From the NCBI RefSeq assembly GCF_021391495.1, contig NZ_CP090063.1, forward strand, positions 4,216,001 to 4,280,000: a stretch of DNA of 64,000 nucleotides, read 5' to 3'. The position numbers and the translations under genes were made by a program. Position 1 is the stretch's first letter. Every line of letters begins with the position of its first letter. Source of the DNA: Amycolatopsis acidiphila (lineage in GTDB: Bacteria; Actinomycetota; Actinomycetes; Mycobacteriales; Pseudonocardiaceae). This document shows positions 5,562-28,361 of this stretch, one piece after another. Below the pieces are notes generated by a model, which did not search any database, was not told the origin of the DNA, and saw nothing but the letters and a program-made list of their open reading frames with translations.

Positions 5562-6947
5562 GTGACCGCATGGCCCGGCCGTGGCCTCGCGCTCCTGGTC
5601 GCCGGCACGTTCTTCATGGAGAACCTGGACGGCACCATCATCGCCACCGCCGCGCCCCGGATGGCCGCCTCCTTCGGTGTGCCTTCGGTCGACATCAGCG
5701 CCGCGATGACCGCCTACCTGGTCACCCTCGCGGTCGGCATCCCCGCCAGCGGCTGGCTCGCGAGCCGGTTCGGCACCCGCGCGGTGTTCGGCTCGGCCAT
5801 CGTGATCTTCACCGTGGCCTCGGGCCTGTGCGCCGCCAGCGTCAGCCTCCCCATGCTCATCGGGATGCGGGTGCTGCAGGGCCTGGGCGGCGCGATGATG
5901 GTGCCGGTCGGCAGGCTGGCGGTGCTGCGCAGCACGGACAGGCGCGACCTGATCCGGGCGATCGCCTACCTGACCTGGCCGGGGCTGATCGCGCCCGTGC
6001 TGGCGCCGGTGCTCGGCGGGTTCTTCACCCAGTACGCGTCCTGGCGCTGGATCTTCCTGGTCAACCTCCCGCTCGGCGTGCTCGCCGGGCTGCTCGCGGC
6101 GCGCATGGTGCCCGCCGCCCGCGCCGGCGTCGAGTCCACCTTGGACTGGCTCGGCTTCCTGCTCACCGGCGTGAGCCTGGCCGCACTGGTACTCGGGATG
6201 CACTGGGTCGGCCAGTCGCCGGTCCACTGGGGCGGCGTGGTCGCGGCGCTGGCCGTCGGCGCCGGCACCGGCCTGCTCGCGGTGCGGCACCTGCGGCGCG
6301 GCGCACAGCCGCTGATGGACCTGCGGACGCTGCGGGTGCGCACCTACCGGATCGCCACCGCAGGCGGGTCGGCCTACCGGGCGGTGATCACCGCGGTCCC
6401 GTTCCTGCTCCCGCTGCTGTTCCAGGACGCGTTCGGCTGGGACCCGGTGCATTCCGGCCTGGTCGTGATCGCCGTGTTCGCGGGCAACGTCGGGATCAAG
6501 CCCTTCACCACCCCGATCATGCGCCGGTTCCCGTTCCGGCCGGTGCTGCTGGCGAGCCTCGCCGGTGGGGTGGCCACCCTCGTCGGCTGCGCCCTGCTGA
6601 CCACCGCCACCCCGCTGTGGCTGATCCTGGCGGTGCTGTTCGTCAGCGGCGTGTTCCGCTCGATCGGCTTCACCGCCTACAACACGCTGCAGTTCGCCGA
6701 CGTCGGCAAGGCGGAGCTGCCGAGCGCGAACACCCTGGCGGCGACGAGCCAGCAGCTCGCGGCCGGGCTGGGCGTCGCGCTCGGGGCGCTCGCGCTGCGC
6801 GTCGGCGTGCCCATCGCCGGTGACGCGGGCACCGGCGCCTACCGGGTGGCGTTCGTCATCCTCGCCGCCGCGATGGCGGCCTGCGCGCTGGAGGTCGTCC
6901 GGCTCCCGGCCGGAGCCGGGGACCAGGTCCGCGCCGGCTCCCGCTAG
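5562..6947 (+). CDS. MFS drug transporter, DHA2 (14-helix) type
   Basis: The 461-residue membrane protein begins with the DHA2 signature in helix 1, FFMENLDGTIIATAAPRMAAS, the counterpart of the common LDxTIVNVALP motif. Motif A-like SRFGTRAVFG and motif C-like GLIAPVLAPVLGGFF are present. These proteins export drugs or other small hydrophobic compounds by proton antiport in the cytoplasmic membrane. The start is GTG. The gene is convergent with the PRC-barrel gene: the two share one CTAG, each using TAG as its stop, so there is no space between them. The transported substrate cannot be inferred. Confidence 0.9.
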   Translation: MTAWPGRGLALLVAGTFFMENLDGTIIATAAPRMAASFGVPSVDISAAMTAYLVTLAVGIPASGWLASRFGTRAVFGSAIVIFTVASGLCAASVSLPMLIGMRVLQGLGGAMMVPVGRLAVLRSTDRRDLIRAIAYLTWPGLIAPVLAPVLGGFFTQYASWRWIFLVNLPLGVLAGLLAARMVPAARAGVESTLDWLGFLLTGVSLAALVLGMHWVGQSPVHWGGVVAALAVGAGTGLLAVRHLRRGAQPLMDLRTLRVRTYRIATAGGSAYRAVITAVPFLLPLLFQDAFGWDPVHSGLVVIAVFAGNVGIKPFTTPIMRRFPFRPVLLASLAGGVATLVGCALLTTATPLWLILAVLFVSGVFRSIGFTAYNTLQFADVGKAELPSANTLAATSQQLAAGLGVALGALALRVGVPIAGDAGTGAYRVAFVILAAAMAACALEVVRLPAGAGDQVRAGSR

Positions 6948-17293: not shown

Positions 17294-18427
17294 TCAGGGA
17301 CCCGCCGGCCAGCCGAGCAGCCGCGCGCCCAGCACGGCGGCCTCCAGCGTGAAGCGCTGCGACGGCTCGCGCGGGTCGTAGCCCGTGAGGTGGCGGACGC
17401 GGTCGAGCCGGTAGGTCACGGCCCGCACGCTGAGGAACAGCTGCCGCGCCGTCTCCGCCGCCACCCCGCCGGTCGCGAAGTACGCCGAGAGGGTGTCGAG
17501 CAGTGGACGGGCACCGCCGCGGGTGCCCTCCAGCGGGCTGAGCACCGTCTCGACCAGGTCGACGATCGCGGCCCGGTCGCGGTAGAGCACCTGGAAGACC
17601 AGCAGCTCGGCGGCGTCGAGCACGTGGGCGGTGAGGCCGAGTGAACCCGCGAGCTCCAGCGCGGTGCGGGCCTCCTCGTAGGACCGCAGGATGCCGCCCG
17701 GGCCGGGGTGCGGTCGCCCGACGCCGATCTGCCAGTCCCGCTCGCCGGTCAGCAGCAGCTCGACCTGGCGGGCGAACTCGGCGGGCACGTCGGCCGCCGT
17801 GCCCGGGGCGATGCACAGCAGCAGCCCGTCCTTGGCGGTGATCAGCACGTCGCGGATGTCGAACCGGCCGAGCAGGGCGGACTCGACCCGCCGGGTGGTG
17901 GCGTCGCCGTCGGTGAACGGGTTGCCGGCGCGGGCCGCCGCAACGAGGTAGCTGCCCGCGAGGCGCAGCCCGAAATGCTCGGCGCGCTCGGCGAGGCGCC
18001 CCAGGTCGCCACGCCCGTAGAGCAGGTCGTCGATGAACTCGCGCCGTTCGGCCTCCTCCTGGCGCACCTGCAGGCGCTGCGCCTGGTCGTAGCCGTCGGC
18101 GAGCGCGACGACGACGTCGTCGGTGGCCCGCAGCACCGCTTCGGCCACCCCGCGCAGCTGCTCCGCCCCGGCCGCGATCGCCACCGCCGGCAACGCGCCC
18201 CAGCACAGCCAGTTCGCGCTCAGGTACAGGTCGACGAGCGCGCGCAGCGGCACGCCCTGCTCCGCGGCGGCGGCGCCGAGGGCGCGGCGGGAGTCCAGCT
18301 CGTCGCGGGCGACGCGCCGGCCGGTCCTGCTCACCCGGTCGAGCATCTCCAGGTATCCCTCCAGCAGGGCCGGGGAGACTCCGCCCGCGTCCCGGCTGGC
18401 TCGCGCCGCCACCTCGGCGATGTTCAT
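17294..18427 (-). CDS. PucR/CdaR-family transcriptional regulator
   Basis: This 377-residue protein ends with the PucR helix-turn-helix (about 315-372): TLSAYFATGGVAAETARQLFLS, then VRAVTYRLDRVRHLTGYDP. A central GGDEF-like CdaR region covers roughly 155-290 (RFDIRDVLITAKDGLLLCI, IGVGRPHPGPGGILRSYEEA). The N-terminal part is helical with an aromatic-rich segment (LSANWLCWGALPAV). PucR-type proteins regulate purine, sugar-acid or secondary metabolism. ATG at 18427 is supported by GGAGGG five bases upstream. The gene is divergent from the NfeD-SPFH pair with 211 bases between; its target is unknown. Confidence 0.88.
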   Translation of the reverse strand: MNIAEVAARASRDAGGVSPALLEGYLEMLDRVSRTGRRVARDELDSRRALGAAAAEQGVPLRALVDLYLSANWLCWGALPAVAIAAGAEQLRGVAEAVLRATDDVVVALADGYDQAQRLQVRQEEAERREFIDDLLYGRGDLGRLAERAEHFGLRLAGSYLVAAARAGNPFTDGDATTRRVESALLGRFDIRDVLITAKDGLLLCIAPGTAADVPAEFARQVELLLTGERDWQIGVGRPHPGPGGILRSYEEARTALELAGSLGLTAHVLDAAELLVFQVLYRDRAAIVDLVETVLSPLEGTRGGARPLLDTLSAYFATGGVAAETARQLFLSVRAVTYRLDRVRHLTGYDPREPSQRFTLEAAVLGARLLGWPAGP

Positions 18428-18638
18428 GATCCCTCCATCCCCGGTTGCCGGAGCCCGGCAGCTCCTGATGACGAGCCTAGCCGCAAGCGCCCGGTCAGCT
18501 CGGAAGTCTCGTTGCCGGGCGCCGGCAACAAAGAGACCGTCAGCGTGGCCGGTCGCCCGCCTTGTCGGTGATGTGCCGGGGCGAACACGATGGGTTGTAC
18601 GGGAAAGGTCCGCACTGCTCGACAGGCAGGGGGTCGCC

Positions 18639-19070
18639 ATGCAGCTCTGGGTCATCTGGCTGATCGCGGCGGTCGTGCTGGGCGGTGTCGAGATCTTCAC
18701 CCTGACCGCCGCGCTGGGCATGCTCGGCGCGGCGGCGCTGATCACGGCCGGGTTCGCCGCCGCCGGGATCCCGCCGCTCGCACAGGCGCTCGTCTTCGCC
18801 GCCGGTGCGGCCGCCGGGCTCGTCCTGGTCCGGCCGGTCGCGCTGCGCCACCTGGCGGTCCCGCCCCGCGAACGCTTCGGCGTGGACGCGCTGATCGGCA
18901 AACGCGCGTACGTCCTGCAGCAGGTCGACGGGTTCGGCGGGCGGGTCCGGATCGACGGCGAGGAATGGACCGCCCGCGCCTACGACGAGACCCTGGTGAT
19001 CCCCGCCGGGGCGGCCGTCGACGTGATGGAGATCAGTGGCAGCACCGCGCTCGTCTACCCGAGGGAGTAG
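18639..19070 (+). CDS. NfeD-like membrane protein
   Basis: The 143-residue protein starts with hydrophobic segments WVIWLIAAVVLGGVEIFTL and AAALITAGFAAAGIPPLAQALVFAAGAAAGLVLV and ends with an OB-fold-like domain (IGKRAYVLQQVDGFGGRVRIDGEEWTARA) that characterises NfeD proteins. NfeD proteins partner with SPFH/stomatin proteins in membrane quality control and microdomains. The stop codon TAG is two bases before the ATG of the SPFH gene, so they form a bicistronic unit. ATG preceded by GGCAGGGGG. Confidence 0.9.
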   Translation: MQLWVIWLIAAVVLGGVEIFTLTAALGMLGAAALITAGFAAAGIPPLAQALVFAAGAAAGLVLVRPVALRHLAVPPRERFGVDALIGKRAYVLQQVDGFGGRVRIDGEEWTARAYDETLVIPAGAAVDVMEISGSTALVYPRE

Positions 19071-20760: not shown

Positions 20761-21966
20761 TCACCGGGAGCGGCGCCGGAGCCTGCCGAGCAGGGACCGC
20801 AGCAGCAGCCGGAAGGCGCCGGGCGCCTTGACCCTGCCCTGCGGCGCGTCGCCGGTCGTCGCGGTCTCGCTCACGGCGGCGGCGAACTGCTCGAACATGT
20901 GCCGGCTCACGTCTCCCGCCAGTGCCCGGCCGAACTGCGCGATCCGGCCGGTCAGGTACACCTTCGCCTCGGCGTGCAGGCGGGTGCCGCCCTCGGCGGC
21001 GGGTTCGGTGCGCAGCAGGATGTCCGCCTGTGTCTGGGCGCCGCCGGTGTCCCGGCCCTGGGCGAGCACCCGCATCCGCCGCGCCGCCCGGTCGTGCTCG
21101 GCGATGTGCGCGACGCCCTTGAAGGCCAGCTTGATCGGACCGACGGAGACCCGCGCGCGCCCGGCGTAGTAGTCCTCGCCCAGCTCCTCGGTGAGCTCGG
21201 CGCCGGGCAGGCAGCGCGCGAGCCGGTGCACGTCGTCGAAGACCGCCCACACCTGGTCCTGCCCGACGCCGACCTCGGTCGCGACGTCCACGGCGATGGT
21301 GGGTTCCCCTTCGGGGAGCACGATCTCCGCCTTCGCGGCGCTCTGTTCGGCGGGGGCGCCGGTCGGTTCCTCATCCACAACGGACCGGCCGGTGCCGCGG
21401 CCCGCGAGTGCCCGCCGCGCGCAGTTCCCCGGGGCGGGGATGCCGCCGGGATGGGCCTGCTGGGCCTCGCGCACCGCGGTCACGATGTTGCGGTAGCCGG
21501 TGCAGCGGCAGATCACCCCGGACAGCTCCTGCGGCAGGTCCTGCTCGCGCACGCCGGGCTGGTGGGTCAGCAGGTCGTAGGAGCTCATCAGGAACCCCGG
21601 GGTGCAGAACCCGCACTGCAGCGCGTGGTTGCGGCCGAACGACTCCTGCAGCGGGTGCAGCTCGTCCGGGCGGCCCAGCCCCTCGACGGTGACGACCTCG
21701 GCCTGGTCGAGCTGCACGGCGAACAGCAGGCAAGCCCGGGCGGCCTCGCCGTCGACCAGCACGGTGCACATCCCGCACACCCCGTGCTCGCAGCCCACGT
21801 GCGTGCCGGTGAGACCCAGCTGGTCCCGCAGCACGTCCGCGAGCGTGACGCGGGCCGGCACGTGCACCGTCACCGGCGTGCCGTTCACCGTCATCCGCAC
21901 CTCGACCGGTTCCCCGGCGCCCGCCCGCACCGGCCTCGGCCGGTTCGGCGCTTCGCTGCTCGTCAT
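20761..21966 (-). CDS. Molybdenum hydroxylase [2Fe-2S] subunit fused to a CoxG/SRPBCC domain
   Basis: The 401-residue protein is a fusion. Residues 22-170 are the small subunit with plant-type cluster Cys59, Cys64, Cys67, Cys79 (GCEHGVCGMC) and the second cluster Cys118, Cys121, Cys153, Cys155 (CGFCTPG, ICRCTGY). After a linker (about 171-220), residues 225-365 form a CoxG-like SRPBCC domain (VWAVFDDVHRLARCLPGAEL, VSVGPIKLAFKGVA). CoxG-type domains help assemble or membrane-attach CO dehydrogenase-like enzymes; here the helper is built into the electron-transfer subunit. It overlaps the FAD-subunit gene by four bases and is last in the operon. It corresponds to HmfC if the furoyl-CoA reading is right. 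Confidence 0.88.
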   Translation of the reverse strand: MTSSEAPNRPRPVRAGAGEPVEVRMTVNGTPVTVHVPARVTLADVLRDQLGLTGTHVGCEHGVCGMCTVLVDGEAARACLLFAVQLDQAEVVTVEGLGRPDELHPLQESFGRNHALQCGFCTPGFLMSSYDLLTHQPGVREQDLPQELSGVICRCTGYRNIVTAVREAQQAHPGGIPAPGNCARRALAGRGTGRSVVDEEPTGAPAEQSAAKAEIVLPEGEPTIAVDVATEVGVGQDQVWAVFDDVHRLARCLPGAELTEELGEDYYAGRARVSVGPIKLAFKGVAHIAEHDRAARRMRVLAQGRDTGGAQTQADILLRTEPAAEGGTRLHAEAKVYLTGRIAQFGRALAGDVSRHMFEQFAAAVSETATTGDAPQGRVKAPGAFRLLLRSLLGRLRRRSR

Positions 21967-22847
21967 GCCTTCTCCTCGTGTGCACGGTGGTACGCCTTGG
22001 CGAGCTCGCGGCCCGCCAGCACCCGGAACAGCCGGCGGCGGTAGTCGCCCGACGCGTGCGCGTCGCCCTCGGTGTCCACCAGCTCGTCGGCCACGGGCGC
22101 GAGCCGCTCGCCCAGCTCCTCGGCGAGGCGGCCGCGGTCACCGCACGCCGCCCGCACCGCCTCGTCCAGCACGCCGGAGACGTCCGTGGTCACCGGGCGG
22201 TCCGACACCCCGAAGCCGGTGAGCACGGCTTCGCCGCCGACCCGCACGGCCACGACCACGCCGGCGAGCGCGAAGTCGCCGTGGCGGCGTGCGATCTCGG
22301 CGAAGCCGAAGCCCTCGCCGGCACGCGCGACCGGCAGCCGGACCGCGGTGAGGATCTCGTCGGGCTCGAGCGCTGTGGTCATCGCGCCGGAGAAGAACTC
22401 CCGCGCCGGGATCCGTCGCTGCCCGCCCGGCCCGGTCGCCACGATCTCCGCGGCCAGGCAGCACGCCACGGCCGGGAGCTCGGCAGCCGGGTCGGCGTGG
22501 GCGAGGCTGCCGCAGACGGTGCCGCGGCTACGCAGCTCCCGGTGCCCGACCCACGGCAGGGCCATCCCGAGCAACGGGACCGCGGCGCTCGCCGGGTCGT
22601 GCTCGACGCGGCGCTGCCGCACGGTGGCGCCGATCTCGAGGAAGCCGTCACGACGGGCGAACCGGTCGAGCCCGTCGACCGCGTTGATGTCGATCAGGGT
22701 GTCGGGCCGGGCGAGACGCATGGCCAGCACGGGGGTCAGCGACTGCCCGCCCGCGATGACCTTGCCGCCCCCGCCCGTGCCGCCGAGCTCGGCCACCGCC
22801 TCGGGCAGCGACGACGGCCGGACGTAGGCGAAGGGTGCGGCTTTCAT
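21963..22847 (-). CDS. Molybdenum hydroxylase FAD-binding (medium) subunit
   Basis: The 294-residue protein shows the CoxM/XdhB FAD motifs: GGGGKVIAGGQSLTPVLAMRLARPDTLIDI (pyrophosphate-binding AGGQS loop), LRSRGTVCGSLAHADPAAELP (second T-x-G-G-S-like motif) and the CO-DH medium-subunit C-terminal domain (FGFAEIARRHGDFALAGVVV). It passes electrons from the Fe-S clusters to the final acceptor. It overlaps the Fe-S/CoxG gene (ATGA) and follows the crotonase gene by nine bases. It corresponds to the HmfB-type subunit in a furoyl-CoA dehydrogenase model; as a generic family assignment it is secure. Confidence 0.92.
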   Translation of the reverse strand: MKAAPFAYVRPSSLPEAVAELGGTGGGGKVIAGGQSLTPVLAMRLARPDTLIDINAVDGLDRFARRDGFLEIGATVRQRRVEHDPASAAVPLLGMALPWVGHRELRSRGTVCGSLAHADPAAELPAVACCLAAEIVATGPGGQRRIPAREFFSGAMTTALEPDEILTAVRLPVARAGEGFGFAEIARRHGDFALAGVVVAVRVGGEAVLTGFGVSDRPVTTDVSGVLDEAVRAACGDRGRLAEELGERLAPVADELVDTEGDAHASGDYRRRLFRVLAGRELAKAYHRAHEEKA

Positions 22848-22856
22848 GGCTTCGGC

Positions 22857-23636
22857 TCACCGCCCCTGGAACTTCGGGGCCCGCTTCTCGCCGAACGCGG
22901 CGACGCCTTCGGCGAAGTCCTTGCTCGACCGCAGCATCGCGTAGGCCTTGCGCTCCAGCTCGATGCCCGAGTACAGCGGCGCGTCGACGCCCTTGTCGAG
23001 CACCTCCTTCGCGGTGCGGGCGGCCAGCGGCGAGTAGCCGAGCAGCACGCCCACGATGCGTTCGACCTCGGCCTCCAGGGCGGCCCGGTCCGGCACCACG
23101 TTGGCCACGAGGCCCCAGTCCCCGGCCTGCCGAGCCTTGATCCGGGACGCGGTCATGATGTGGTACTTGGCGCGGGAGAGCCCGATGAGCCGGGCGAGCC
23201 GCTGCGTGCCGCCCGAGCCCGGGATCATGCCCAGGCGCATCTCCGGCAGCGCGAACTCGCTGCGCTCGGTGCAGACCCGGATGTCGGTGGACAGCGCCAG
23301 TTCCAGCCCGACGCCGAAGCAGTAGCCGTCCACGGCCGCGATCACCGGCTTCGGGCTGCGGGCCGCTGCGGTCACGTTGTGGCCGAGGTCGGTGAAGTCG
23401 ACCGGATCGACCTCCATGAAGCCCGCGATGTCCCCGCCCGAGGAGAAGTGCTCCCCCTCGGCCCGCACGACCACCACCTGGATGTCGTCGTCCGCGTCGA
23501 TCTCGGCGAACCGGTCGGCCATCACCTGCCGGGTCTCCCAGGTGATGATGTTGTACCTGCCGTGGCTCAGGGTCAGGTAGGCGACACGGCCGTCGTGCCC
23601 GCGGTCCAGCTTGATCTCGCCTCCGGTGAGTGGCAT
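22857..23636 (-). CDS. Crotonase-family enzyme, candidate 2-oxoglutaryl-CoA hydrolase (HmfE-like)
   Basis: The 259-residue protein has the enoyl-CoA hydratase/isomerase fold: EGEHFSSGGDIAGFMEVD (oxyanion loop), AAVDGYCFGVGLELALSTDIRV, and LPEMRLGMIPGSGGTQRLARLIG. It has Pro-Glu-Met-Arg in the region of the first hydratase Glu and Pro-Gly-Ser-Gly at the second, so it need not be a simple hydratase. The unusual start with HGRYNIITWETRQ sets it apart. In hmf-type furoate clusters the crotonase HmfE hydrolyses 2-oxoglutaryl-CoA. Its position inside a molybdenum hydroxylase operon beside an acyl-CoA synthetase supports that reading; a true enoyl-CoA hydratase is the alternative. Confidence 0.8.
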   Translation of the reverse strand: MPLTGGEIKLDRGHDGRVAYLTLSHGRYNIITWETRQVMADRFAEIDADDDIQVVVVRAEGEHFSSGGDIAGFMEVDPVDFTDLGHNVTAAARSPKPVIAAVDGYCFGVGLELALSTDIRVCTERSEFALPEMRLGMIPGSGGTQRLARLIGLSRAKYHIMTASRIKARQAGDWGLVANVVPDRAALEAEVERIVGVLLGYSPLAARTAKEVLDKGVDAPLYSGIELERKAYAMLRSSKDFAEGVAAFGEKRAPKFQGR

Positions 23637-23639
23637 CGC

Positions 23640-26072
23640 TCAGCGTTTCCTTTCGTGGTCGCTGCCAGCGGGGCCGCTGAGCAGCTCGTGGAGCACGTTC
23701 CCGTGCAGGGGCAGGCTGGTGATCCGCACGCCGGCGGGCGAGAGCGCGTCGGCGACCGCGTTCGCGATCGCGACGGGCAGGCTCATGCTGCTGCCCTCGC
23801 CGCAGCCCTTCGCGCCCAGCCGGGTCAGCGGCGACGGGGTGACCAGGTGGTCGCTGTCGAGCTCGTAGGTCGTCTCGGCGCTCGTCGGGCAGAGGTAGTC
23901 CATGAACGTGGCGGTGGGCTGGCCCGCGTCGGTGTAGCGCATCTCCTCGTACATCGCGCCGCCGAGGGCCTGCGCGAGCGCGCCGTGCACCTGCCCTTCC
24001 AGCAGCGTCGGGTTGAGGATCGTGCCGGCGTCGTGCACGGTCACGACCTTCTCGAGGGTGAGCTGCCGGGTGGCGGGCTCGATCCGCACGACGGCCAGTT
24101 CCGCGACGAACCCGTAGCAGAGGCTGGAGTTGATCTGGTCGCTGCGGCTCGCGGCCTTGGACTGCGGTGGCGTGAACGCCGCTTCCTCGTACAGCCGCGC
24201 GGAAACGCCCTCGGGCAGCGAGCCCGGGTCCCAGTGGACCAGACCGGCAGCGTGCCGGAAGGCCACCGACCGGGTGGGGTCCGCGACGACGCGCACCGTT
24301 CCGTCGGCGAGCTCGACCTCGGCGGGATCGGCCTGCAACAGTGTGGCGCCCGCGACCCTGATCGTCGCGGCCAGCTTCTCGCTCGCCTCGACCAGCGCGC
24401 TTGTCAGCAACGGTGCGAAGCGCGAGGAGTAGCTGCCGGTGCTGATCGTCCACGGGGTGGTCGCGGTGTCCATCTGCACCACCGGGCGCACCTGGTCCAG
24501 CGGCAGGCCCAGCTGACCGGCGACGACCTCCTGTGCGACCGTCGCGTGGCCCTGTCCCTGCGGCACGGTGCCCAGCAGGACCGACACGATCCCGCCCGGG
24601 TCCACGCTGATCCGCACGTGCTCGGTGGAGCCGGACTTCCCCCGCCCCGGCGCCCGCTGCTCGGCGGGGGTGGCGAGGCCGACGTAGCCGATGTTCGTCG
24701 CCGAGGGGTCCACGATCGTCGCGACCCCGATGCCGAAGTACTCCCCGCGTTCGCGCGCCTGCCGCTGTCGCTCGCGCAACGCCTGGTAGTCGGCGTTCTT
24801 CACGAGCAGGTCCAGCGCGCGGGGGTAGTCGCCCGAGTCGTAGACGCCGCCGGTCGGGGTGGGGTACGGGAAGTCCTCCGGCTGCACGAAGTTGCGCCGC
24901 CGCAGCTCGACCGGGTCCAGGCCGCACACCCCGGCGACCTCGTCCATCAGCCGTTCCAGTCCGAAGTAGAGCTGCTGGCCGCCGAAGCCGCGGTTGAGCC
25001 CGGTCGGGGTCTTGTTGGTGACCACGGCACGCGAGCGCAGCGCGACCGCGTCGATCCGGTAGGCGCCGGTGATGTTGCCGAAGCAGCGGTAGAGGGTGCT
25101 CGGCTCGGGCGGGCGCAGGTAGGCGCCGACGTTGTCGACCAGGTCCGCGCGCAGCCCCCGGACCCGGCCGTCGGCGGACACCGCGGCCTCGAACCACATC
25201 GTGCGGTCCGAACCGGCGGAACTGGCCAGCAGGTGCTCGATCCGGTCCTCGGTCCAGCGCACCGGCCGCTCCGCGTGCTTGCTGGCCAGCGCCATCAGCG
25301 CCACGTAGGGGTACACGGCGGCCTTGATGCCGAAGCTGCCGCCGTTGTCGGCCGGGACCATCAGCCGGATCCGCGAGGCGGGCACGCCGAAGGCGCCGGC
25401 GAGCACCGCGAGCATCGAGAACGGGCCGTGGAAGTTCGTCCACGCCTGGATGGCGGGCCCGTCGGCCTCGTCCTGCCAGTCGGCGATCACCGAGTAGCAC
25501 TCCATCGGCGTGGAGGAGTAGCGCGGGAACGCGTACTTGCCCCGCACGACGTGGTCGGCGGCGGCGAACACCTCGTCCACGTCGCCGAAGGCGAAGGTCC
25601 GGTCGGTCGCGACGTTGCCCCCGGCCTCCTCGTGCAGCACCGGCGCGGCCGGCAGGAGCGCCTTCTCGACGTCGACCACCGGCGCCAGCGGTTCGTAGTC
25701 CACCTGCACCAGCTCGGCCGCGTCCTCGGCGACGTAGCGGTCCTCGGCCACCACGACCGCCACGGGCTCCCCGACGAACCGGACCTTGTCCACGGCCGTC
25801 GGGTAGTAGGGCATCGGCGTCTTCAGCGCGAGCGGGAACGGCCGCAGCCCGGCGGCGACCTCCTCGGGCCCGATCACCGCGGCGACGCCGGGATGCCGGC
25901 GCGCGGCCGCCAGGTCGACCCCCCGGATGCGGGCGTGCGCGTGCGGGCTGCGCACGATCGCCGCGGTGAGCGTCCCGGGCAGCGGGTCGATGTCGTCCAT
26001 GAACCGGCCGCGGCCGGTGAGCAGCGGCGGATCCTCGATCCGCGCGGTGGTGCGCGATGCGGCGGCGGTCAT
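23640..26072 (-). CDS. Molybdenum hydroxylase large (Mo-cofactor) subunit, candidate 2-furoyl-CoA dehydrogenase
   Basis: The 810-residue subunit belongs to the xanthine oxidase/CO dehydrogenase large-subunit family: RFMDDIDPLPGTLTAAIVRSPHAHARI at the start, GGSFGIK (244-250), TGLNRGFGGQQ (357-367), VPQGQGHATVAQEV and the catalytic Glu759 in GAKGCGEGSS. The active-site loop lacks the AYxCSFR of form I CO dehydrogenase, so it is not a CO oxidiser. Operon partners are a CoA ligase and a crotonase, matching 2-furoyl-CoA dehydrogenase HmfABC, which hydroxylates furoyl-CoA at C5. ATG 26072 is chosen with CAGGTGA upstream; the CoA-ligase stop is six bases before it. 4-Hydroxybenzoyl-CoA-type or other heteroaromatic substrates are alternatives. 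Confidence 0.85.
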   Translation of the reverse strand: MTAAASRTTARIEDPPLLTGRGRFMDDIDPLPGTLTAAIVRSPHAHARIRGVDLAAARRHPGVAAVIGPEEVAAGLRPFPLALKTPMPYYPTAVDKVRFVGEPVAVVVAEDRYVAEDAAELVQVDYEPLAPVVDVEKALLPAAPVLHEEAGGNVATDRTFAFGDVDEVFAAADHVVRGKYAFPRYSSTPMECYSVIADWQDEADGPAIQAWTNFHGPFSMLAVLAGAFGVPASRIRLMVPADNGGSFGIKAAVYPYVALMALASKHAERPVRWTEDRIEHLLASSAGSDRTMWFEAAVSADGRVRGLRADLVDNVGAYLRPPEPSTLYRCFGNITGAYRIDAVALRSRAVVTNKTPTGLNRGFGGQQLYFGLERLMDEVAGVCGLDPVELRRRNFVQPEDFPYPTPTGGVYDSGDYPRALDLLVKNADYQALRERQRQARERGEYFGIGVATIVDPSATNIGYVGLATPAEQRAPGRGKSGSTEHVRISVDPGGIVSVLLGTVPQGQGHATVAQEVVAGQLGLPLDQVRPVVQMDTATTPWTISTGSYSSRFAPLLTSALVEASEKLAATIRVAGATLLQADPAEVELADGTVRVVADPTRSVAFRHAAGLVHWDPGSLPEGVSARLYEEAAFTPPQSKAASRSDQINSSLCYGFVAELAVVRIEPATRQLTLEKVVTVHDAGTILNPTLLEGQVHGALAQALGGAMYEEMRYTDAGQPTATFMDYLCPTSAETTYELDSDHLVTPSPLTRLGAKGCGEGSSMSLPVAIANAVADALSPAGVRITSLPLHGNVLHELLSGPAGSDHERKR

Positions 26073-26077
26073 GCGGT

Positions 26078-27628
26078 TCACCTGTCTGCTTTCGTGGTGC
26101 TGTCGGCCAGTGCCCGGTAGTGACCCGAGGTGAGCTCGCGCCGGAGGATCTTGCCGACGGCCGACTGGGGAAGGGCGTCCACGGCGATCAGCCGTTTCGG
26201 CCGTTTGAGCGAGGGCAGCCCGGACTGTTCCCGGGCGAAGAGCTCGAGCACCGCCATCGCGTGCTCGGCGGTCGTGCCCTCCTCGGGCACGAAGAACGCC
26301 GTCGCCGCCTGGCCCCACCGGTCGTCGGGCAGCCCCACGACGACGACCGCGCGGACGACCGGACAGCGGATCAGGGCGTCCTCGATCTCGTCCGGATAGA
26401 TGTTCTCGCCGCCGGAGTTGATCATGTCGTCGACCCGGCCCGCCACCCACAGGTCGCCGTCCTCGTCCTCGACCGCGAGATCGCCGGGGAAGTACCAGCC
26501 GCCACGGATCGACCTGCCGTTCGCGTCGGGACGGCGCCAGTACCCACCGAACGCCTCGGGACTGCCCATGGAGACCGCGAGCTGCCCCTGCTGCCCCGGC
26601 ACCACCACGTCGTCCGGGCCCGCGGCGGGGTCGGGGTCGATCAGCCGGACGCGGGAGAACAGCCCGGCGCGGCCGGCCGACCCCGGTTTGGCCGCGACGT
26701 CCGGGCCGATGGTGAAGGTGTAGATCTCGGTGCTGCCGAAGTGGTTCACGAACGACTCCGGCTCCAGCGCGTCGCACAGCTGCTCGGCGAGCGCCGGGGT
26801 CATCGAGGCGCCCGCGTAGGCCAGCTTGCGCACCGACTTCGCCTCCGCGAGGCGGCCGGTCCGCACCAGGGACCAGTAGATGGTCGGCACCAGGTAGAGC
26901 GACCGGACCCGCTCGGCGACGATCAGCTCCAGCGCCTCCTCGGCGTCGAACCGGACCTGCGGCACCCAGGTGCCGGCGGCGGCGACCGTGGCCACGAGGG
27001 TGCGCAGGCCCATGGTGTGGAACATCGGCATGACGCCGAGCGCCGCACCGGCCAGCGGCTGCCCGGTCTGCACCAGGTGGGCGATCGCGGCGGCGTGCTC
27101 GGCGCGGTGCGACCGCGGCACGCCCTTGGGCTTCCCGGTCGTGCCCGAGGTGTAGAGCAACACGCTGATGTCCTCTTCGGACACCGTCGCGTCCGGCGCG
27201 GTGTCGGGCTCGGCCGGCGCCAGGCGCTCGATGGTGCCCGCCGCCGCGCCCGAGCGGACCCGGGTGAGCGGCGGCAGGTCCGCGAGCGCCTCGTCGGCGA
27301 CGGCTTCGGTCGACTCGTCCGTGACGAGCATGACCGGGGCGGCGTCGGCGACGCAGTAGGCCAGCTCCGCCGCGCCGAAGCGGAAGGACAGCGGCACCGA
27401 GACCGCGCCGAGCTTCTGCAGCGCGAAGTGCAGGCTGGCCAAGGGTTCGCCGCCGGCGAGCGACAGCACGACCCGGTCGCCGCGGCGGACACCGAGCCGC
27501 GCCAGCGCCCGCGCCAGGCGGTTGGTGTGGGCGTCCCACTCCGCGTACGACATCGGGTGCGGTCCGCCCACAGCCCGGCGCGCCGGATAGCGCTCGGCGG
27601 TCCAGCGCAGCACGGTGCCCAGATCCAT
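26078..27628 (-). CDS. Acyl/aryl-CoA synthetase, candidate 2-furoyl-CoA synthetase
   Basis: The 516-residue adenylate-forming enzyme has the P-loop-like [18 protein letters not shown], the A5-type HFGSTEIYT (normally YGxTE), GWYFPGDLAVEDEDGDLWVAGRVDDMINSGGENIYPDEIE and the C-terminal catalytic Lys in SAVGKILRREL. The HFGSTE motif is typical of aromatic/heteroaromatic acid ligases rather than fatty acid ligases, as I know the family. It is first in the operon; transcription probably starts between it and the PadR gene, where a candidate operator lies. It would activate the acid (2-furoate in the model) to its CoA thioester for the molybdenum hydroxylase. Confidence 0.88.
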   Translation of the reverse strand: MDLGTVLRWTAERYPARRAVGGPHPMSYAEWDAHTNRLARALARLGVRRGDRVVLSLAGGEPLASLHFALQKLGAVSVPLSFRFGAAELAYCVADAAPVMLVTDESTEAVADEALADLPPLTRVRSGAAAGTIERLAPAEPDTAPDATVSEEDISVLLYTSGTTGKPKGVPRSHRAEHAAAIAHLVQTGQPLAGAALGVMPMFHTMGLRTLVATVAAAGTWVPQVRFDAEEALELIVAERVRSLYLVPTIYWSLVRTGRLAEAKSVRKLAYAGASMTPALAEQLCDALEPESFVNHFGSTEIYTFTIGPDVAAKPGSAGRAGLFSRVRLIDPDPAAGPDDVVVPGQQGQLAVSMGSPEAFGGYWRRPDANGRSIRGGWYFPGDLAVEDEDGDLWVAGRVDDMINSGGENIYPDEIEDALIRCPVVRAVVVVGLPDDRWGQAATAFFVPEEGTTAEHAMAVLELFAREQSGLPSLKRPKRLIAVDALPQSAVGKILRRELTSGHYRALADSTTKADR

Positions 27629-27669
27629 GACCGTCCCTCCGTCGCGACAGCAGCTTACGATCTGTTTCA

Positions 27670-27685
27670 GATGGTCCGTTTCAGA
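27670..27685 (-). promoter_or_regulatory. PadR-operator candidate before the CoA-synthetase operon
   Basis: On the minus strand this reads TCTGAAACGGACCATC, 42 bases upstream of the CoA-synthetase start. The same 16-mer with two changes (TCTGAACCGGACGATC) sits before the PadR gene at 28346-28361. A further partial copy (TCTGAAACAG) lies next to it at 27660-27669. Two sites flanking the regulator's targets are typical for autoregulated PadR repressors. Confidence 0.55.
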
Positions 27686-27783
27686 CTATTGGAGAGTACG
27701 AGAAGGCCCGAGGCCCGTCAAGGCCGGTGGTGTGACGAAGACTCGCCTGGCAGCTCGAAGGCCAGGTCAGCCAGGAAGGACGA

Positions 27784-28314
27784 TCAGTACTCTTCCGCGA
27801 CGGACTTCCAGAAGCGCAGCGCCGCGTGCTCCATCTCCAGCCCGAGCCGCAGCGTGATCATCCGGCGGGCGACGCGGTCGTCGCCGCCGAAGCGGCGCTG
27901 CATCTGCTCGTACACCGAGATCCGCTCTTCGTGCTGCTTGATCTGCTCGCGTGCGAGGCTCGCCACGTTGCCGGGATCGCCCAGCTCGTTGAAGAACAGC
28001 TTCAGCTCGGCGATGTCACGCATCTCGAAGTGCTCGTTCGTGGGCGAGCCCAGCCAGTCGCGCAGCGCCTGCCTGCCCTCGGCGGTGATGCGGTAGGTCT
28101 TGCGCCGGCGCCCGGTCTCCTCGGTCTCGACCTCGAGCAGGCCCATCTTCTCCAGCCGCTCGGGCTCGGAGTACAGCTGCGCGTGCGGGAAGGACCAGAA
28201 GTAGCCCACGGAGTGGCCGACGGCGCGCTTGAGGTCGTACGGCGTCGACGGCCCGCGCAGCCCGATCGTCCCCAGCACGACGTAGGAGGTCGTGCTCAAC
28301 CGTCGGCTCGACAT
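27784..28314 (-). CDS. PadR-family transcriptional regulator
   Basis: The 176-residue protein has the PadR winged helix: LSTTSYVVLGTIGLRGPSTPYDLKRAVG, SVGYFWSFPHAQLYSEPERLEKMGLLEVE, then RRRKTYRITAEGRQALRDWL. The C-terminal part (about 90-176) is a helical Vir-like domain (FFNELGDPGNVASLAREQIKQHEERISVYE) for dimerisation. PadR proteins repress phenolic-acid and drug-efflux genes and release DNA when bound to ligand. It lies directly upstream of, and on the same strand as, the CoA-synthetase/molybdenum hydroxylase operon, with shared 16-bp motifs before both. It likely senses the aromatic or furanic substrate or its CoA ester. Confidence 0.9.
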   Translation of the reverse strand: MSSRRLSTTSYVVLGTIGLRGPSTPYDLKRAVGHSVGYFWSFPHAQLYSEPERLEKMGLLEVETEETGRRRKTYRITAEGRQALRDWLGSPTNEHFEMRDIAELKLFFNELGDPGNVASLAREQIKQHEERISVYEQMQRRFGGDDRVARRMITLRLGLEMEHAALRFWKSVAEEY

Positions 28315-28345
28315 GGCTTCGCACCCTATCCTACCGTTCCGATGA

Positions 28346-28361
28346 TCTGAACCGGACGATC
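28346..28361. promoter_or_regulatory. PadR-operator candidate before the padR gene
   Basis: TCTGAACCGGACGATC, 14 of 16 identical to the site before the CoA-synthetase gene but in the opposite orientation. It ends 32 bases upstream of the PadR start codon, close to its promoter. Flanking CCGTTC and GAACGG form a further inverted pair around it. Confidence 0.55.

Follow-up and report, generated by a model that had tools for sequence, protein, structure and literature searches.

An hmf-like locus of Amycolatopsis acidiphila, very probably for 2-furoate degradation, with a CoxG domain on its [2Fe-2S] subunit and a PadR-type regulator

Heating of plant sugars gives rise to furan acids, whose aldehydes are inhibitory to microbes in biorefineries. 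The gene set for the degradation of 2-furoate has been published as hmfABCDE, in the order A-B-C-D-E (PMC6678421), and the hmf clusters studied experimentally are proteobacterial, as far as the extracts of the literature surveyed extend. In the parts of PMC6678421 consulted, HmfE is assigned as a thioesterase and the opening of the lactone intermediate is left without an assigned enzyme, a step that PMC12064950 ascribes to a putative hydrolase ('hyd'). The locus described here occupies positions 20761-28314 on the minus strand of a 64,000-nucleotide stretch of the Amycolatopsis acidiphila genome (contig NZ_CP090063.1, positions 4,216,001 to 4,280,000; hereafter the window) and consists of six genes in the order padR, D, A, E, B, C, lettered after the Hmf proteins. 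It very probably represents an actinobacterial form of the Hmf lower pathway from 2-furoate to 2-oxoglutarate, as a sequence-only reading of the window had proposed.

The gene set and its relation to Cupriavidus hmf clusters

The sequence-only reading had named a ligase, a molybdenum subunit, a crotonase, two further oxidoreductase subunits and a PadR gene on this strand, and the Pfam families of the six products confirm each of them. Next to padR (27784-28314) lies a gene for an HmfD-like adenylate-forming ligase, a predicted 2-furoyl-coenzyme A (CoA) synthetase of 516 amino acids (aa) (26078-27628; PF00501 and PF13193), followed by genes for an HmfA-like molybdenum subunit of a predicted 2-furoyl-CoA dehydrogenase (23640-26072; 810 aa; PF01315, PF02738 and PF20256), an HmfE-like crotonase (22857-23636; 259 aa; PF00378), an HmfB-like flavin adenine dinucleotide (FAD) subunit (21963-22847; 294 aa; PF00941) and an HmfC-like [2Fe-2S] subunit (20761-21966; 401 aa; PF00111 and PF01799) that carries an additional CoxG domain and tail. 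The start of A was set at 26072 by choice, and a database copy (P0007) likewise has 810 residues. The five enzyme genes are spaced like a single transcription unit, with gaps of 5 nt between D and A, 3 nt between A and E and 9 nt between E and B, and an overlap of 4 nt between B and C.

Two Cupriavidus plasmid clusters, those of C. pinatubonensis HN-2 and C. necator NH9, served as references in place of C. basilensis HMF14, whose proteins have the accessions ADE20399-ADE20403 (PMC6678421). Both have the published gene order, and NCBI gives the C. necator E protein the name 2-oxoglutaroyl-CoA hydrolase. All five window proteins align with both sets, at 47% identity for A, 41-42% for B, 52-56% for C, 43-44% for D and 49% for E, over nearly the full length of A, B, D and E and over approximately residues 15-165 of the 401 of C. 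When A, D and E of C. pinatubonensis were searched against the 8.18-Mb genome that contains the window (B and C being outside this reverse test), the window gene ranked first each time, with 727 versus 434 bits for HmfA (23 matched places), 403 versus 250 bits for HmfD (102 matched places) and 246 versus 106 bits for HmfE (67 matched places). A, D and E are orthologs of the Cupriavidus proteins, and alignment with HmfA-E, at 41-56% identity overall, bears out the sequence-only reading. Many close homologs of A are also named 2-furoyl-CoA dehydrogenase large subunit by JGI.

From this gene set we infer the substrate and the individual reactions as follows. D would activate 2-furoate to 2-furoyl-CoA, and the molybdenum hydroxylase composed of A, B and C would place a water-derived oxygen onto C5 of 2-furoyl-CoA, electrons passing from molybdenum to [2Fe-2S] to FAD. 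The hydroxylated product would become a lactone by tautomerisation, and opening of the lactone and cleavage of the thioester would yield 2-oxoglutarate, with E predicted to carry out at least the thioesterase step. The catalytic glutamate pair of enoyl-CoA hydratases, 20 residues apart at the positions that we take from rat crotonase, reads Glu/Glu in 117 of 118 loci, the window included (one was not readable), and this leaves room for a ring opening that E may also perform.

The molybdenum subunit was found at E 1e-200 or better in 53 of 297 sampled genomes of the family and, at E 1e-200, in 8 of 394 of the class, and the crotonase at E 1e-60 in 4 of 396 of the phylum, the own genome being included each time; these may be undercounts, the searches having scored three (family), two (class) and six (phylum) candidates per genome. 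Conservation of gene neighborhood was examined in 34 relative loci drawn from places outside the own genome (24 of 53 in the family, 7 of 7 in the class and 3 of 3 in the phylum). Genes A, B, C and E occur together in all 34 and D in 33, counts that show linkage and not frequency, as the loci were picked for a match to A or E; in the locus without D (L160) the contig ends just past A. The gene set is therefore not a chance grouping. Of the 34, 29 share the window's order D-A-E-B-C; in L159 D comes after C, and L161-L163 have A-D-E-B-C. Median identities of these relatives to the window are 72% for A, 62% for B, 72% for C, 64% for D and 76% for E. One genome (G607) holds the five-gene set twice, about 1.36 Mb apart (L149 and L167).

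Phylogeny, substrate and rival identities

In a tree of 44 molybdenum subunits, the 29 HmfA-type rows form one clade with support 100/100, within which the window protein belongs to a 12-row actinobacterial clade, also at 100/100. Outside the HmfA-type clade are 14 paralogs from the window's own genome and CoxL of Oligotropha, whose sister is one of those paralogs (L178). A MoCoBD_1 domain is encoded at 15 places in the same genome, and CoxG-like matches lie no more than about 5 kb from four of these, the window not counted.

Evidence on the substrate was sought in genes that accompany the locus in relatives. A UbiD gene is nearby in 7 of the 34 relatives, with at least 49% identity to its counterpart near the hmf cluster of C. 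necator; an MFS transporter in 10, with at least 46% identity to the one that follows C. pinatubonensis hmfE; and a BenE-type transporter in 6, with at least 45% identity to that of a Halorussus cluster (two of these UbiD genes and one of the MFS genes are truncated where the stretch ends). In a relative of the same genus (L136), UbiD adjoins padR, and its best match among solved structures is PDB 6h6v, with 440 bits versus 195 for the next different protein; the C. necator UbiD behaves alike, with 445 bits versus 194. We take PDB 6h6v to be the furandicarboxylate decarboxylase HmfF. HmfF converts furandicarboxylic acid to 2-furoate (PMC12064950, in the part consulted).

Several observations weigh against assigning the pathway to the window. 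At E 1e-3 the 64-kb window contains no match to any of 14 proteins encoded beside the reference clusters, among them UbiD, UbiX, transporters, XdhC and aldehyde dehydrogenase, and support for the substrate therefore comes only from relatives; the HmfF-like UbiD beside their loci, which is the best evidence on this point, belongs to some of the relatives and not to the window, whose genome gives best-scoring matches of 38% to the Cupriavidus UbiD and 33% to the Cupriavidus MFS transporter. Homologs of A are elsewhere named xanthine dehydrogenase family, aldehyde oxidase or carbon monoxide (CO) dehydrogenase, and homologs of C are named YagT or CO dehydrogenase small subunit by JGI. The tree carries warnings for long branches among the paralogs and for unusual composition in six rows. 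Its HmfA-type clade also includes a haloarchaeal protein whose cluster encodes two ligases and, within the 18 kb read, no crotonase, and clade membership by itself therefore does not fix the substrate. That cluster lies on a plasmid of Halorussus vallis (L013, 1448-13377) and, besides the HmfA-type molybdenum subunit and its ligases, has genes for a PaaI thioesterase, a BenE transporter and a stand-alone SRPBCC protein; with no crotonase annotated within those 18 kb, the thioesterase possibly stands in place of HmfE.

The closest rival holds that the same chemistry acts on thiophene-2-carboxylate, pyrrole-2-carboxylate or several five-ring acids, instead of or beside 2-furoate. Ring heteroatoms are inseparable by sequence, identity to the Cupriavidus proteins is just 41-56%, and pyrrole-2-carboxylate decarboxylases of the UbiD family exist (PMC7976604, in the part consulted); however, C. 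basilensis HmfF and the Bacillus megaterium pyrrole enzyme are 31% identical according to the same extracts. The MFS transporter linked to the operon in relatives is shared with Cupriavidus hmf clusters, and the L136 UbiD is led by 6h6v, presumably HmfF, so that an analog as the substrate is considered unlikely. Much further from probable is another aromatic acyl-CoA enzyme, for example 4-hydroxybenzoyl-CoA reductase acting with a dienoyl-CoA hydratase, to which the gene types are alike overall and whose models give distant matches. Scored with NCBIfam models and their cut-offs, all three subunits fall far short of this enzyme (372 bits against 995 for A, 73 against 405 for B and 137 against 258 for C; models TIGR03194, TIGR03195 and TIGR03193), in keeping with the sequence-only reading, and the five proteins are close to Hmf.

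A CO or aldehyde dehydrogenase of the CoxL family among unrelated neighbors is suggested by the best solved structure for A, which is a CoxL chain (455 bits), and by the one source that names an A homolog carbon monoxide dehydrogenase. At the CO dehydrogenase loop site, however, A reads GLNRGFGG where the CoxL chains compared read VAYxCSFR, so that the absence of this loop, noted in the sequence-only reading, was borne out. A molybdenum-copper CO dehydrogenase was accordingly rejected, since the cysteine-containing loop is absent, A scores 450 bits against a cut-off of 991 (TIGR02416) and CoxL lies outside the HmfA-type clade. The neighbors also recur, the crotonase beside A in 34 of 34 relatives and the ligase in 33, and the CoxL-family alternative seems highly implausible. 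The reading in which 2-furoate is converted to 2-oxoglutarate is very probably right.

The CoxG domain and the route of electrons

A feature absent from the sequence-only reading is that the [2Fe-2S] gene is a fusion. A CoxG domain, of the SRPBCC type (PF06240), occupies residues 231-368 of the window C protein, with 58.2 bits versus a cut-off of 22.2, and the protein ends in a basic, leucine-rich tail, APGAFRLLLRSLLGRLRRRSR. PF06240 is carried by all 120 matches listed in a search with C, the best 120 of 2,338 with the query as one row, under a length limit that favors fusion proteins.

The position of CoxG was surveyed in 118 loci, the window included, with a profile built from six sequences and with matches above 15 bits accepted anywhere in the stretch read. 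Among 35 Bacillota loci it is a stand-alone gene in 26, with 4 incomplete and 5 lacking it; among 45 Pseudomonadota loci 34 have it joined to A, with 10 incomplete and 1 lacking it; and among the 34 loci fetched from the window's phylum 30 have it joined to C, 3 have it as a separate gene and 1 lacks it. The loci incomplete for A or C, for which no verdict was given, number 17, of which three are named actinobacterial loci. Complete loci with no CoxG above 15 bits in the stretch read are L037 and L045-L048 (Bacillota), L089 (Pseudomonadota) and L158; under a 6-kb limit L033, L034, L035 and L162 were also scored as lacking CoxG, and the match in L044 is weak (49 bits). Some rows are partly dependent, L036 and L037 being on one contig and L067 and L088 in one assembly. 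Fused forms of both kinds, judged by eye, often end in short hydrophobic-basic tails, and several of those from actinobacteria (L141, L145, L149, L154 and L156 among them) are chiefly basic or polar.

Two described systems bear on the role of the domain, each as reported in the portions of the source consulted. When coxG of Oligotropha was disrupted, CO dehydrogenase was still functional but no particulate enzyme was present in extracts, and the cells needed 149 h instead of 21 h per generation on CO, about 7-fold slower growth (PMC4240915). CoxG-like proteins of Sulfolobus recruit glycerol-3-phosphate dehydrogenase to the membrane (PMC11962113). By analogy, the CoxG domain on C probably ties the oxidising enzyme to the cell membrane, and the simplest reading is that domain and basic tail act as a tether placing the FAD of the enzyme at the quinone pool, to which it would pass the electrons. 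Counting against the second part of this proposal, Sulfolobus dehydrogenases reduce quinone without CoxG (PMC11962113, again in part), so CoxG may be an anchor only, with quinone reduction independent of it. The [2Fe-2S] subunit of L158 (at approximately 6,050-6,800) counts against the proposal as a whole, having no CoxG domain by profile. This subunit keeps a short basic C-terminal tail, as would be expected after in-frame loss of the domain.

A more general proposal is offered tentatively, with somewhat less than an even chance of being correct: that 2-furoyl-CoA dehydrogenase is generally membrane-tethered and quinone-linked, with the CoxG anchor joined to the molybdenum subunit in Pseudomonadota, joined to the iron-sulfur subunit in actinobacteria and separate in most Bacillota, so that the hold on the membrane matters and the point of attachment does not, and that HmfE may both open the lactone and cleave the thioester. 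Among the entries listed in a narrow search of the open-access literature, none dealt with CoxG fused to furoyl-CoA dehydrogenase. The differing arrangements of CoxG raise a testable question, namely the route by which the electrons of this molybdenum enzyme enter respiration.

Regulation, surroundings and comparison with known systems

The PadR-type regulator (176 aa; PF03551 and PF10400) is 60.6-74.3% identical to its counterparts in 27 relatives. In all 27 relatives with PadR the gene is divergent from the operon, and in the window alone it is co-directional, an orientation that would be a local inversion in this lineage. A palindrome that the sequence-only reading did not contain, RTCYGWWWCRGAY, is conserved between padR and the operon: it is present in 19 of 27 such spacers, the window included (28 loci have PadR when the window is counted, and L146 was excluded on account of its 1,730-bp spacer). 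There are 20 matches in the 3,084 bp of spacers versus 1 in the remaining 488,099 bp of those loci, an enrichment that is partly circular, the pattern having been written after the intergenic sequences were seen. Within the window there are just two copies, spaced by 14 bp, where 0.03 would be expected, and they are the sole close pair among 9 sites in the whole genome.

Both copies lie just upstream of D and are likely PadR operators: putative operator 1 (GTCTGAAACGGAC on the minus strand, 27674-27686) and putative operator 2 (ATCTGAAACAGAT on the minus strand, with perfect palindromic arms, 27660-27672). An imperfect copy with one mismatch lies upstream of padR (28345-28357); it is weak taken alone, the 64 kb containing 3 matches with at most one mismatch versus 1.27 expected in shuffled sequence. 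The palindrome is absent from 8 of the 27 spacers, which speaks against its being the operator throughout. The layout fits a locally acting, self-regulating PadR, which would repress the operon by binding the palindrome pair; a furan acid or the corresponding CoA ester would probably release it. The proposal that PadR replaces the proteobacterial regulator is strengthened by synteny and the shared palindrome. Nothing on PadR with furoate was found among the entries listed in a narrow search of the open-access literature.

The genes around the cluster are of unrelated types. Beyond C are genes for a RibD-type reductase, an SPFH protein and a PucR-type regulator, the last of which (17294-18901) adjoins the SPFH gene about 2 kb from the cluster and has no evident link to it. 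Beyond padR, to about 31 kb, are four tested open reading frames with no Pfam match, then genes for a CAAX-protease-like protein and an aldo/keto reductase.

Compared with known systems, the locus shares with CO dehydrogenase CoxMSL of Oligotropha an enzyme superfamily and a CoxG partner, and differs in the missing cysteine loop, in the presence of ligase and crotonase and in a molybdenum subunit only 33% identical. It shares with 4-hydroxybenzoyl-CoA reductase a molybdenum hydroxylase family that works on aryl-CoA, but its A, B and C are under the cut-off in all three subunit models. The cluster of Geobacillus kaustophilus plasmid pHTA426 has the same enzymes and gives the best BLAST match for A and E among the reference clusters compared, whereas its CoxG is a separate gene and an extra ligase, XdhC, UbiD and molybdate-related genes are nearby. 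Cupriavidus hmfABCDE has the same five enzymes (41-56% identical) and likewise a CoxG domain, which is on the molybdenum subunit there and on the iron-sulfur subunit here; the window lacks a linked transporter or UbiD. The combination of A-B-C-D-E order with an AraC or LysR regulator that characterises proteobacterial hmfABCDE is not found in the window, where the order is D-A-E-B-C, not A-B-C-D-E, and a PadR gene replaces the LysR gene of Cupriavidus. Both differences weigh against the assignment to the Hmf pathway, and because of them the locus is counted as a variant and not a copy of the proteobacterial operon. Conserved in actinobacteria and equipped with a regulator and a likely operator of its own, such a gene set could become a furoate sensor and degradation module. 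The locus is a new form of the known Hmf pathway, with a different gene order, a different regulator and a different position of the putative anchor.

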